A stretch of 64,000 nt of DNA from Cycloclasticus sp. (GTDB taxonomy: Bacteria; Pseudomonadota; Gammaproteobacteria; Methylococcales; Cycloclasticaceae). The stretch covers positions 1 through 64,000 of the forward strand of contig PADC01000011.1 in NCBI GenBank assembly GCA_002700385.1. Reading direction: 5' to 3'. The position numbers were made by a program, and so were the translations under genes. Position 1 is the first letter of the stretch. Every line of letters begins with the position of its first letter. The notes beneath the pieces are model-generated. The model was not told the origin of the DNA and ran no database searches. It worked only from the letters and a program-made list of their open reading frames with translations. This document shows positions 11,938 to 15,598 of the stretch, piece after piece.

Positions 11938-14010
11938 CTACCATTCATAACGAGCCGTAATGTATAAGTTTCTCCCTTGGCTGGGGACTTTATCTCCAAC
12001 CGCTACATCTGCATTACCCATCACACGATTGATAGCCGCTGTATGGTCTTCATAGTCTTTATCTAAGATATTCTCCACGCCTACACCGACATTAAAGCCT
12101 GTCGCTGGCTGAATTTCGCCACGCAGATGAAGTAAACCATAACCCGCTGAATTCATTTCGCCGTTATAGTCAGCCACATCGTTTTGCGCAGCATAGGCCT
12201 CGACTTCTGTGGCAATAGACCAGTTATTTTGCGCGTAGGTTAATTGAGTTCGGGCATTAAGCGGCGCTATCCGGTAGAGGTTATCGCCCCCCTTGTCTCT
12301 TTGACGCCCTCGCACATAACTTACCGTACCGTCTAAACGCCAATCATTTGTCATCTCATACCCCCACTCTACATCCACACCGTAAAGCTCGGCATCCACA
12401 TTCGTAAACTGAAGCGCATCCCGCCCTGTATTTGAATTTGCAATCATATTGGCAGCAGCATTCGTGCTAACCTCACCTTGGATGTAATCATCTATACGAT
12501 GATAAAAAGCACGTGGTGCGACATACAACCCACCAGATGCGTACTCTAACCCCGCTTCAAACTGATACGCTGTTTCTGGGTCCAAGTTAACGTCACCAAT
12601 ATACACTCGGTTATCCGCTAATCCACCCGTCGCCTCTAGAGGTATCCATAAAAAACGTTCTTGATATGAGGGGGAACGCATTTTACGAGCCAAACCAACT
12701 TCTGCTGTTAATTCGCTGGACAAGGTTTGCCTCAAGATCGCAGCAAAATCCCAGTTATGGTCTGTTTGAGAACGATCACTGCCATTAAAATTATCAACAA
12801 GAACTGTTACAGGCATCATCATCCCATACATGTGATGGTTTACCTCGTCGGAATCCATATCAACTTGTGTATAACGAACACCTGCCTCAAGTTCTAAGCC
12901 CTCGTCAATATCACCTTTCCATTCAACAAACGTACTGTAACGATTTTTCTCCGCTCCGTTGAAGTTATCCACGCCAAACATCGGGTTATTTCGATCAGTG
13001 ATAAATCCGTCATGCGTTGACTCATCGCCTTCAAGTCCTAGACTTAAACGCCCCCCTGATAAAGGCAGATGATACACAATAGATAAACCACCGCCATCAA
13101 CCGTCGTTAAGTTTTGACGCTCTCTACCAGCTAATACACCGTTAGGGCGCAAACTGAAGTTATTCATCAAGTGACGCATATCTTGGTAGTAATAATCAAC
13201 GTCTAGCGAACGACTTCCACCTAACTGCAATGAGTAGTCCGCTGTCAAGACACCACCACGAACCCAAATAATGTCCATGGGTAATGAAGGCGTACCGGAG
13301 TGCCCCGTATCGTTATTGCTGTAATCAAAACCGAGCTCATGTGCGCCTTGACGGAAACCGTAGCCAATCGTGTATGCATCTCGGTCGTACTGACTGGGGT
13401 CAACAGATTGACTGCCATCGAACTCGTAATCGTCGCCCTGTTCTTGACTCAAACTGGCATGAAAACGATGACTATCATTAGCATAAGTACCTAAAACACT
13501 GCTTGTTAGTCCGTTATCTACTTCACTATAGCCCAAAGAGGCTAACCCATGAAACTCAAAATCAGTGTTATCCGCAAACTCACTTTTACGCGAAGCTGCA
13601 GACATTGACCCCCCGATGGTTTCAATCCCACTGCTAACGGGCGCGATGCCACGATAAACTGTTAAGTTATCCGTTAAGGCTGCAGGGATGTGACTTAATG
13701 GCGGATCCATACTGTTAGGTCCCACTTCTTTCCATGACATACCATCAACCGACGTATTCACTCGAGAACCAAATTGACCCCGATAAGAAGCAATCCCGGT
13801 TAACGGGCCATTCCTATTAACATTTGCACCCGGCACACGTTTCAATAACGCCGCGGTGTCTTTTAACGCTAAAGATTCTGGAGCAAGACCAAATGCACCC
13901 GGGCGCATTTTGCTGTCTTCAACAATAATGGTTTGATTGGTATAGTCTGCCGCATGGGCGGAAACAGCAGCAATCGCTGCTGGCAATAAACTGAACTTAA
14001 GCTGTTTCAT
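11938..14010 (-). CDS. TonB-dependent receptor, OprC/NosA-like (probable copper)
   Basis: 690 residues. Signal peptide MKQLKFSLLPAAIAAVSAHA, then a TonB-box-like stretch (QTIIVED). The plug domain contains RVPGANVNRNGPLTGIASYRG, VDGMSWKEVGPNSMDPPLSHI and YRGIAPVSSGIETIGGSMSA. A 22-strand-type barrel follows, ending in an aromatic strand (LYITARYEW). The plug resembles OprC/NosA copper receptors. A Met/His-rich extracellular-looking segment (VNHHMYGMMMPV) fits a soft metal, though OprC-type cysteines are absent. The start has a good AAGGA site. Just upstream is an operator and -10-like element shared with a divergent predicted small RNA. Copper is inferred; another metal or a small organic substrate is possible. 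Confidence 0.82.
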   Translation of the reverse strand: MKQLKFSLLPAAIAAVSAHAADYTNQTIIVEDSKMRPGAFGLAPESLALKDTAALLKRVPGANVNRNGPLTGIASYRGQFGSRVNTSVDGMSWKEVGPNSMDPPLSHIPAALTDNLTVYRGIAPVSSGIETIGGSMSAASRKSEFADNTDFEFHGLASLGYSEVDNGLTSSVLGTYANDSHRFHASLSQEQGDDYEFDGSQSVDPSQYDRDAYTIGYGFRQGAHELGFDYSNNDTGHSGTPSLPMDIIWVRGGVLTADYSLQLGGSRSLDVDYYYQDMRHLMNNFSLRPNGVLAGRERQNLTTVDGGGLSIVYHLPLSGGRLSLGLEGDESTHDGFITDRNNPMFGVDNFNGAEKNRYSTFVEWKGDIDEGLELEAGVRYTQVDMDSDEVNHHMYGMMMPVTVLVDNFNGSDRSQTDHNWDFAAILRQTLSSELTAEVGLARKMRSPSYQERFLWIPLEATGGLADNRVYIGDVNLDPETAYQFEAGLEYASGGLYVAPRAFYHRIDDYIQGEVSTNAAANMIANSNTGRDALQFTNVDAELYGVDVEWGYEMTNDWRLDGTVSYVRGRQRDKGGDNLYRIAPLNARTQLTYAQNNWSIATEVEAYAAQNDVADYNGEMNSAGYGLLHLRGEIQPATGFNVGVGVENILDKDYEDHTAAINRVMGNADVAVGDKVPSQGRNLYITARYEW

Positions 14011-14045
14011 GATTTCCTTATTTTTGTTTTTTTACAATAAAAGTA

Positions 14046-14090
14046 ATTCTACCTATGAAAGAGCTTGCTGAAGTGTGACAAATTGTCGCA
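14046..14090 (-). promoter_or_regulatory. Operator plus -10-like element of the TonB receptor gene
   Basis: On the minus strand, the 17-mer TGCGACAATTTGTCACA (14090-14074) is followed after exactly 22 nt by TAGAAT (14051-14046). Transcription would begin near 14039, about 29 nt before the ATG. The 17-mer is itself a near palindrome (TGYGACAA, one centre base, TTGTCRCA). Centred near -43, it is placed like a class II activator site. An identical copy faces the other way at 14222-14238. Confidence 0.7.
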
Positions 14091-14104
14091 CCTATACTCC
14101 TCAT

Positions 14105-14167
14105 CTAAAAAGCAACAGATTTATTAGCCTTTTTAGAAACCTTGAGTCGCAGAATTTTTTATTCTGC
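14105..14167. repeat. Two hairpin-forming inverted repeats between the paired operators
   Basis: CTAAAAAG at 14105-14112 pairs with CTTTTTAG at 14129-14136; GCAGAAT at 14149-14155 pairs perfectly with ATTCTGC at 14161-14167 over a 5-nt loop. Neither is followed by a T tract on either strand, so they are not intrinsic terminators. They may be additional protein sites or merely structure. Confidence 0.6.
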
Positions 14168-14221
14168 CAAGCTTAATATCTTGACGGGTTTATAAAATAA
14201 ATTCTCCACTTCAATGGGTTC

Positions 14222-14266
14222 TGCGACAATTTGTCACATTCAAAAAATCTAAAATTCAGTTAGACT
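14222..14266 (+). promoter_or_regulatory. Second operator copy with -10-like element, facing a predicted small RNA
   Basis: TGCGACAATTTGTCACA at 14222-14238 is base-for-base the inverted copy of the site before the TonB receptor. It is followed after exactly 22 nt by TAGACT at 14261-14266, matching TAGAAT at the same distance on the other side. Predicted transcription start is about 14273, running plus-ward. Confidence 0.68.
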
Positions 14267-14271
14267 TTATA

Positions 14272-14376
14272 CCAACTCTTAATCAGCATGCCGCCTCCTC
14301 ATAGCTGGCTGCTTCCGATCTCAAATCTTTTAAGAGTCCCTTTAACCGCCCTCTACACTTTAGAGGGCGTTTTTTT
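14272..14376 (+). ncRNA. Predicted small regulatory RNA with intrinsic terminator
   Basis: No credible gene lies in this plus-strand stretch, yet it ends in a strong intrinsic terminator. ACTCTTAA (14275-14282) pairs perfectly with TTAAGAGT (14330-14337), closing a domain that begins at the predicted start site. Inside, AGC/GCC arms (14285-14292) can pair with GGC/GCT (14307-14313), leaving a 14-nt loop with CCTCC at 14294-14298, complementary to a Shine-Dalgarno core. The terminator follows at 14347-14376. The only ATG (14288) lacks a ribosome site, and its frame runs through the terminator, so a peptide is unlikely. Expression is inferred, not shown. Confidence 0.65.
14347..14376 (+). terminator. 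Strong plus-strand intrinsic terminator with no upstream gene
   Basis: CGCCCTCTA (14347-14355), loop CACTT, TAGAGGGCG (14361-14369), then seven T (14370-14376). The stem is 9 bp and perfect. On the minus strand no T tract follows, so it serves plus-strand transcription and is a poor terminator for argG, which ends just beside it. Confidence 0.93.
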
Positions 14377-14380
14377 GATT

Positions 14381-15598
14381 CTAAGAATGCTTACCTGCGG
14401 CAATTCGCATACGCAACGCATTTAATTTGATAAACCCTTCGGCATCTTTTTGATTGTACGCACCGCCGTCATCTTCAAACGTCGCGATATTTTCATCGAA
14501 CAAGCTATCTGTCGCAGACTCTCGACCAACAACAATCACATTGCCTTTATACAGTTTTAAACGAATTCGGCCATTAACACTCACTTGCGAGGCATTAATC
14601 ATTGTTTGCAACATGTCACGTTCGGGGCTCCACCAATACCCGTTATAAATTAAGCTCGCATAACGAGGCATTAACTCGTCTTTAAGGTGCGCCACTTCAC
14701 GATCTAATGTTATAGATTCCATGGCACGGTGAGCTTTGAGCATAATCGTTCCACCCGGCGTTTCGTAACAACCACGCGCCTTCATACCGACATATCGGTT
14801 TTCTACAATATCTGCACGGCCAATGCCATTTTCACCACCTACTTTATTTAATTGTGCAAGCACCGTCGCTGGTGACATGGCTTGACCATCAATAGCGACG
14901 ATATCGCCGGCTTTGTATTCGAGTTCAAGGTACGTTGGTTCATTTGGTGCTGCTTCAGGTGAGACTGACCAACGCCACATTTCTTCTTCTGGCTCAACCC
15001 AGGGGTCTTCCAAAATATCGCCTTCATAGGAAATATGCAGTAAGTTTGCATCCATCGAATAGGGTGATTTTTTACCGCGTTTCATTTCAACGGCAATCCC
15101 TGCTTTTTCAGCGTAGGCCAACAAGGAGTCACGCGATGTTAAATCCCATTCACGCCAAGGGGCGATAATTTTGACATCCGGTTTTAAGGCATACGCCCCC
15201 AATTCAAAACGTACCTGGTCATTGCCTTTACCCGTTGCGCCATGAGAAATGGCATCGGCGCCGGTTTCATTAGCAATTTCAATTAAACGTTTTGAAATAA
15301 GTGGTCGGGCAATAGAAGTCCCTAACAGGTATTCGCCTTCATAAATCGTATTGGCACGGAACATTGGGAATACAAAATCACGAACGAATTCCTCTTTTAA
15401 ATCATCAATATAAATTTCTTTTATGCCGTATGAGGCGGCTTTTTCGCGTGCAGGTTCAACTTCTTCACCTTGCCCTAAGTCTGCGGTGAATGTGACCACT
15501 TCACAATCGTAAACATCTTCTAACCATTTGAGGATAACTGACGTATCTAATCCGCCCGAATAGGCCAGAACAACCTTATTAACTTCTTGCTTTGACAT
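14381..15598 (-). CDS. argG: Argininosuccinate synthase
   Basis: 405 residues, normal for the class. It condenses citrulline and aspartate with ATP in arginine synthesis. The N-terminal P-loop-like ATP motif is [13 protein letters not shown]; other hallmarks are ADLGQGEE, the citrulline/aspartate segment [15 protein letters not shown] and the conserved GRSESPYS-type region, here [11 protein letters not shown]. argB is at 24851, 9 kb away, so arginine genes are dispersed here. A single gene by spacing (61 nt to the next start upstream). Confidence 0.98.

Follow-up and report, generated by a model that had tools for sequence, protein, structure and literature searches.

RegB/RegA is a widespread redox regulator, and Cycloclasticus comprises marine hydrocarbon degraders. 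A closely related regulatory case has been described in Methylomonas sp. DH-1, where RegA is needed for a TonB-dependent receptor, the tonB operon and feo; according to the main text of that study the effect on feo is direct, whereas RegA was not found on the receptor and tonB promoters, so that these effects are indirect and run through unknown intermediaries (PMC13274454). Among receptors of solved structure the best relative by sequence is OprC, a copper importer of Pseudomonas aeruginosa with a CxxxM-HxM copper site, and the accessible part of its description reports that the C143A variant lost Cu(II) binding and still bound silver (PMC8610252). The CrtA receptor of Bordetella is, in the available sections of two reports, tied to respiratory oxidases and regulated through CruR (PMC12914433; PMC10422930). 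Sibling NmsR RNAs of Neisseria meningitidis are described, in the portion of the source at hand, as lowering TCA-cycle enzymes and as being controlled through the stringent response (PMC5362039).

The locus analyzed here is the gap between a gene for an OprC-like receptor and argG in a Cycloclasticus genome, within a window of 64 kb (the whole stretch of DNA that was analyzed). Judging from the sequence, we consider it likely that two outward promoters in this single gap are switched on together by a RegB/RegA-like redox system encoded elsewhere, and that they drive the OprC-like receptor and a small RNA. The features of the two promoters and of the flanking genes are as follows.

11938-14010, minus strand: OprC-like TonB-dependent receptor, 690 aa (open reading frame; profile and structure-relative matches)
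14046-14051, minus strand: -10-like hexamer TAGAAT, 22 nt from the operator (from reading of the sequence; putative start)
14074-14090, minus strand: RegA/PrrA-like 17-bp operator of the receptor promoter, TGCGACAATTTGTCACA
14222-14238, plus strand: RegA/PrrA-like 17-bp operator of the small RNA promoter (homologous sites precede the RNA in relatives)
14261-14266, plus strand: -10-like hexamer TAGACT, 22 nt from the operator (in relatives mostly TAAGCT-type at 22-23 nt)
14381-15598, minus strand: argG, the convergent neighbour, given as context and outside the unit (open reading frame and family match)

The operator pair and the OprC-like receptor

The two copies of TGCGACAATTTGTCACA are exact, inverted and facing outward (14090-14074 on the minus strand and 14222-14238 on the plus strand), as the initial annotation had stated. 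Its claim that such a match goes beyond chance was borne out as well, since with up to three mismatches to TGCGACAATTTGTCACA the window holds four matches, which are the same two places read on both strands, against 0.28 expected, and none of 100 shuffles reached four. A search for the 17-mer across the genome, which had been proposed at the same time, was carried out over 2.5 Mb with the pattern TGYGACAAWTTGTCRCA; the two operators are the sole sites at up to one mismatch, and the whole genome has one further site at two mismatches. The latter (G000:C8:36024-36040, in locus L075) lies between genes for a phosphate-selective porin and a sigma-54 activator, with a second TGTCTCA close by, and is probably unrelated.

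On the receptor side the nucleotides 14073-14052, and on the RNA side the nucleotides 14239-14260, make up the 22 nt between operator and -10-like hexamer. The operators, which share the core GACAA-N-TTGTC with one centre base, would be centred near -43 and cover the -35 region; the activator-like placement proposed earlier is supported by the sequence. A TTGTCA inside the operator was considered as a -35 element and dropped, the spacer to the -10 being 24 nt in that case. When spacers of 16-18 nt are allowed at the receptor promoters of the genus, the best -35 has one to four of the six consensus letters, and at most three in 11 of 14 promoters.

The motif is present at up to one mismatch in 15 of the 18 genomes of the genus, while the reversed pattern is found in 0 of 18, and the site precedes every full-length receptor gene found in the genus (14/14 loci). 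The distance from the receptor operator to a TAnnnT hexamer is 22 nt in ten of these loci and 23 nt in four, and most of the small RNA promoters in a set of 126 (see below) have 23 nt. The spacing rule is 22-23 nt rather than exactly 22; the matched 22 nt that had been pointed out earlier applies to both promoters here, and relatives do not follow it strictly. With this adjustment the arrangement is kept in relatives, both for the receptor (14/14 at 22-23 nt) and for the RNA (13 of 18 genomes). Two of the five genomes in which the RNA was not found, G014 and G015 (87% and 80% complete), have kept RegA and show neither a site at up to one mismatch nor the receptor, which weighs against the RegB/RegA-like reading.

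The description of the receptor as OprC-like is supported by the sequence. TIGR01778 is its best NCBIfam match (194.7 bits, with the curated cut-off of 472.45 not reached), and OprC is its best solved-structure relative by sequence. In all 14 genus receptors the Met and HxM ligand positions are kept and the cysteine of OprC is missing (glycine there), leaving the CxxxM-HxM copper site incomplete in 14/14. Because of the relationship to OprC and the kept Met and HxM positions, the cargo is probably copper or a copper complex, a reading from sequence that is weakened because the cysteine is missing. No operator was recognisable before OprC-like receptors of other families in 16 loci, where two listed places have four mismatches.

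Several further arrangements were seen within the genus. In G002 another TonB receptor, with a heme-type best match, occupies the place of the OprC-like receptor (L076, 4137-6401) and keeps the operator with one mismatch and a -10 at 22 nt. Second TonB receptors with an operator occur in L060, L062, L065 and L071, those of L065 and L071 being named by their likeness to L062; the genes next to them gave weak BNR repeat matches in L060 and L071 and no match in L062. A CobW-family gene, starting shortly 3' of the operator of the RNA, is found between small RNA and receptor in L049 (2965-3900) and in the loci of G009, G012, G013 and G017, where the identity comes from PF02492 for the L049 protein and was assigned by eye for the others. 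Operators also lie near copper monooxygenase genes in L058 (G005, by eye) and L061 (G007, by Pfam), which fits a copper link without proving one, and in G007 (L061) a Phenol_MetA_deg outer-membrane-type protein adjoins the operator.

The candidate regulator

The regulator of the operators is probably a RegB/RegA (PrrBA)-like redox system and not CusR/CopR, to judge from motif fit and gene neighbourhood. Of the 12 positions of the PrrA motif both operators match 11, and of the 11 positions of the RegR motif 9, in the form in which these motifs are quoted in a partly accessible source (PMC5506826); the PrrA motif alone is not rare, as the window has five places at 11/12. Within the genus a site is found before regB in 12 of 17 loci when up to two mismatches are allowed and the pattern is widened at two positions, a count that omits L085 with its three mismatches and does not have G012, a genome without a RegA hit, among the 17. 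The nearest -10-like hexamer of the genus regB promoters (TAAAGT-type) lies 27-28 nt away, as compared to 22-23 nt at the receptor. At the regB promoter of this genome itself no site can be recognised, and this speaks against autoregulation in the present case.

The RegA-like gene of this genome is located at G000:C3:353403-353936, and its product matches PrrA (1umq) over the DNA-binding end and also 3rqi. The kinase carries the H-box AHELGTPL and the quinone heptapeptide GGATNPF, which agrees with the RegB form GGxxNPF; it also has a cysteine, in KRCKKVL, as a candidate for the redox-active one. For the proteins of G007 the response regulator was found to contain Response_reg and HTH_8 (a receiver and a Fis-type helix-turn-helix), and the best NCBIfam models are ActR/PrrA/RegA for the regulator and ActS/PrrB/RegB for the kinase. 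Because the curated cut-offs of NF033791 and NF033792 were missed (209.1 of 250 and 235.3 of 350 bits, for the G007 proteins only), we use the names RegA-like and RegB-like.

The motif extends beyond the genus. When the motif is relaxed, 173 of 201 genomes of the order, presumably Methylococcales, contain an exact match, and six contain one to the reversed pattern by our own count; outside the order it is found in 44 of 271 genomes of the class (47 of 274 if three order genomes are counted in). The AMO/pmoA family is present in 166 of the 201. In 15 of 28 genomes the nearest site, among the matches listed, lies 1349-1838 nt upstream of regA, which is about the length of one regB gene; 18 such distances were picked by eye among the matches listed, and 15 of them belong to the 28-genome set. 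Among the class loci outside the order a RegB-like frame is seen in 8 of 28, and in six of these it directly adjoins the site. In two of the loci outside the order (L253 and L254) the site is flanked by a RegB-like gene on one side and a Phenol_MetA_deg protein on the other, and in L263 the neighbours are a RegB-like gene and a TonB receptor; some other site neighbours in such loci are TonB receptors or Phenol_MetA_deg outer-membrane-type proteins.

A RegA hit was obtained in 190 of the 201 order genomes, and 7 of the 11 genomes without one still have a motif match, so that the presence and absence of regA and motif track weakly. This would suit a different arrangement in which another protein, e.g. 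of CRP/FNR type, controls the operators as well as regB, with regB being a fellow target and RegA not the binder, and the lack of a site at the regB promoter of this genome points the same way. We find it unlikely, however, as the published PrrA motif is matched at 11 of 12 positions and the link to regB recurs outside the order, next to the site in 6 of 28 loci. A CRP site is TGTGA-N6-TCACA. The resemblance to CRP sites named in the initial annotation was not supported, since this pattern is unmatched at up to two substitutions in 14001-14400, the gap here is 7, and the recurrent partner of the motif is the regB promoter.

It appears quite unlikely that a RegA-like protein acts in the opposite direction and blocks the polymerase from its place over the -35 region until it is released. 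Such repression would agree with the overlap between operator and -35 position, but the fixed spacing of 22-23 nt and the poor -35 suit activation, and expression of the feo, tbdr and tonB genes of Methylomonas sp. DH-1 depends on RegA, as given in the main text (PMC13274454). Activation by a RegB/RegA-like system is the reading that we carry forward.

Predicted small RNAs of the genus and the order

The rightward promoter is followed by the features listed below, all ahead of the end of argG.

14273-14376, plus strand: small RNA, about 104 nt, with its start placed from the conserved 5' CAACTCTTA (covariance model, recurrence in the genus, fold)
14275-14282, plus strand: 5' strand of the predicted closing helix, ACTCTTAA
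14294-14300, plus strand: anti-Shine-Dalgarno-like CCTCCTC in the inner hairpin (from the sequence; putative function)
14317-14327, plus strand: GATCTCAAATC, the form that the conserved GACCTCAA box takes in this genome (alignment)
14330-14337, plus strand: 3' strand of the predicted closing helix, TTAAGAGT
14347-14369, plus strand: intrinsic terminator of the small RNA, with a T run after it (terminator search; helix kept in the alignment)

The small RNA that had been predicted earlier gained support from its terminator, from the fold (z = -5.08 with the terminator and -2.52 without it) and from homologues. In 13 of the 18 genus genomes an RNA of about 94-165 nt can be read that has its own site and is terminated, and a covariance model of nine sequences finds the same 13; the model matches 14273-14376 with an E value of 1.3e-13, this sequence being among its nine. 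The layout shared in the genus consists of a nearly invariant 5' CAACTCTTA able to pair with TAAGAGT, a variable inner part, the GACCTCAA box with a mean unpaired probability of 0.75, and the terminator. Without the terminator the RNA bodies of the 13 genomes have a mean z of -2.4, and for 6 of the 13 an equally good fold is reached by 10 or more of 200 shuffles. Covariation within the genus is slight, as two pairs, both in the terminator, are changed on both sides and there is hardly any variation in the closing helix. That the transcript might contain a conserved small ORF was considered and rejected, as start codons and frames differ across the 13 genomes and two have none.

Searches with the model in 43 genomes outside the genus, using stricter filters, gave nothing convincing (G034 and G057 at E 0.2-0.5), and in 31 loci of other families it had no match at E up to 1. 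Rfam 15 gave 0 matches at the gathering score in the window, in 10 loci and in 18 further loci. What the Cycloclasticus RNA has in common with the RNAs of other families is the wiring and the general shape only.

This wiring recurs in the order. Out of 126 distinct order promoters having the site 22-23 nt before a TAnnnT, 78 reach an intrinsic terminator within about 190 nt, a proportion that is not a genome-wide rate, since a locus had been picked for containing a site, a receptor or another match. Part of the 78 may not be genuine RNAs; L178 is one doubtful case and L004 another, its assigned end being an inner hairpin. In the control, terminators followed in 35 of 197 directions that start from a site of this kind and lack a -10 at 22-23 nt, a fairer comparison than random TAnnnT hexamers (115 of 1500), which include non-intergenic DNA. 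Outside the order, promoters with the site gave 0 terminators in 28. Anti-Shine-Dalgarno-like words (CCUCCU, UCCUCC, CUUCCU, CCUUCU) stand upstream of the terminator in 54 of 75 distinct RNAs, where shuffling gave a mean of 12 and a maximum of 20.

The RNAs of the order adjoin regB, rsmA, argG or msrA (rsmA and msrA by eye). For the RNA type of family f8, mostly near regB, an alignment of 14 sequences keeps 225 of 233 pair cells, and in 6 of its 17 pairs both partners are changed; the type mostly beside rsmA, assigned by eye, has nine sequences with 4 of 9 pairs so changed. Tandem copies or pairs of RNAs are found in families f2, f3, f6 and f8, and in eight loci (L151, L152, L187, L190, L191, L207, L219 and L231) two or three operator-driven RNAs stand in tandem in one intergenic region. 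In three loci of f6 (L186, L188 and L189) an operator with TATAAT at 22 nt was seen by eye before a frame resembling a heavy-metal-associated domain (GMHCTSCEK).

One might take the plus-strand transcript for spurious or a decoy, or its terminator for a shield of argG from transcription in the gap, with no regulatory RNA being made. In the genus the sequence between the two ends is strongly variable in length and letters, the near-invariant closing helix leaves little covariation evidence, and a target search for TTGAGGTCG followed by ATG after 2-12 nt in the 18 genomes was negative, with 46 matches against 38 for the reversed control and no clear enrichment. We nevertheless hold this explanation to be improbable, as 13 genomes share the promoter, the 5' end, the internal box and the terminator, the RNA unit is kept even where the receptor is located elsewhere, as in G007, and other RNAs of the order are wired in the same way.

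With a regulatory RNA as the preferred reading, we put forward tentatively, and with somewhat more doubt than conviction, that in the methanotroph order the RegA-like regulator may act largely through sequence-diverse RNAs sharing one operator. These RNAs could be what links RegA to the receptor and tonB genes that it affects indirectly in Methylomonas. The one in Cycloclasticus would lie head-to-head with the gene of a copper-type receptor, and redox state and metal supply would thereby be coupled at the levels of transcription and translation.

Proposed mechanism and comparison with known systems

The mechanism that we infer, from operator binding and activation through the redox signal and the copper cargo to the mode of action of the RNA, would run as follows. 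An over-reduced quinone pool would cause the RegB-like kinase to phosphorylate the RegA-like regulator, which in its phosphorylated form would bind both 17-bp operators near -43 and substitute for the absent -35. From the leftward promoter the OprC-like outer-membrane receptor would be made, probably for copper or a copper complex, and from the rightward promoter the terminated RNA of about 104 nt, which probably blocks translation of target mRNA via its C/U-rich anti-Shine-Dalgarno segments.

The direct signal is probably redox, sensed at the quinone pool, and not copper; the copper proposed in the initial annotation remains plausible as the cargo of the receptor and gives way to redox as the signal. 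A CusR/CopR box is GACAA-NN-TTGTC, with two centre bases. That a copper regulator of this type binds both sites and switches receptor and RNA by copper, as had been suggested from the GACAA-N-TTGTC core and as the Met and HxM positions of the receptor might also indicate, together with two genus genomes whose sites lie close to genes for copper monooxygenase (G007 by Pfam, G005 by eye), is highly improbable, because this pattern is unmatched at up to two substitutions in 14001-14400, the sites have one centre base and not two, and the recurrent neighbour of the motif across families is regB with its promoter.

If the RegB/RegA-like reading is true, bacteria that oxidise methane and hydrocarbons would place the uptake of metals under redox control via a layer of small RNAs that has no Rfam match in the scanned loci, and regulons could be predicted from a single operator rule in many genomes, the motif being present in 173 of 201. 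Among the papers listed for methanotrophs, RegA and small RNAs and for copper limitation and small RNAs, mostly outside subscription journals, we saw none on such RNAs.

The receptors of the genus resemble OprC in their sequence relationship, in the Met of CxxxM and in HxM, and differ from it, as OprC is presented in the accessible text, by lacking the CxxxM cysteine in 14 of 14 cases (PMC8610252). CrtA receptors, likened here by description alone, are copper-regulated, and that of Pseudomonas is also without the cysteine; in the available sections they form a sequence cluster apart from OprC, with control via CruR in Bordetella (PMC12914433; PMC10422930). On the regulatory side the RegB/RegA system of Methylomonas sp. 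DH-1 is alike in being a methanotroph system that governs a TonB-dependent receptor, and the words 'srna', 'motif' and 'consensus' do not appear in the main text of that paper (PMC13274454). This 2026 study left the indirect RegA control of the receptor and tonB unexplained in its main text, and the candidate RNAs make the question directly testable (PMC13274454). The NmsR RNAs, also likened by description, share the tandem arrangement and predicted anti-Shine-Dalgarno motifs, and their control by the stringent response, as stated in the part of the source available, differs from the RegA-like redox control proposed here (PMC5362039). Finally, PcrZ and PcrX of Rhodobacter sphaeroides are by description small RNAs under PrrA and other regulators in feed-forward loops; they belong to another class, have photosynthesis targets and respond also to AppA/PpsR and FnrL, and PcrX, in the account given by the accessible text, comes from a 3' UTR, whereas the RNAs of the order come from promoters of their own (PMC8307010).
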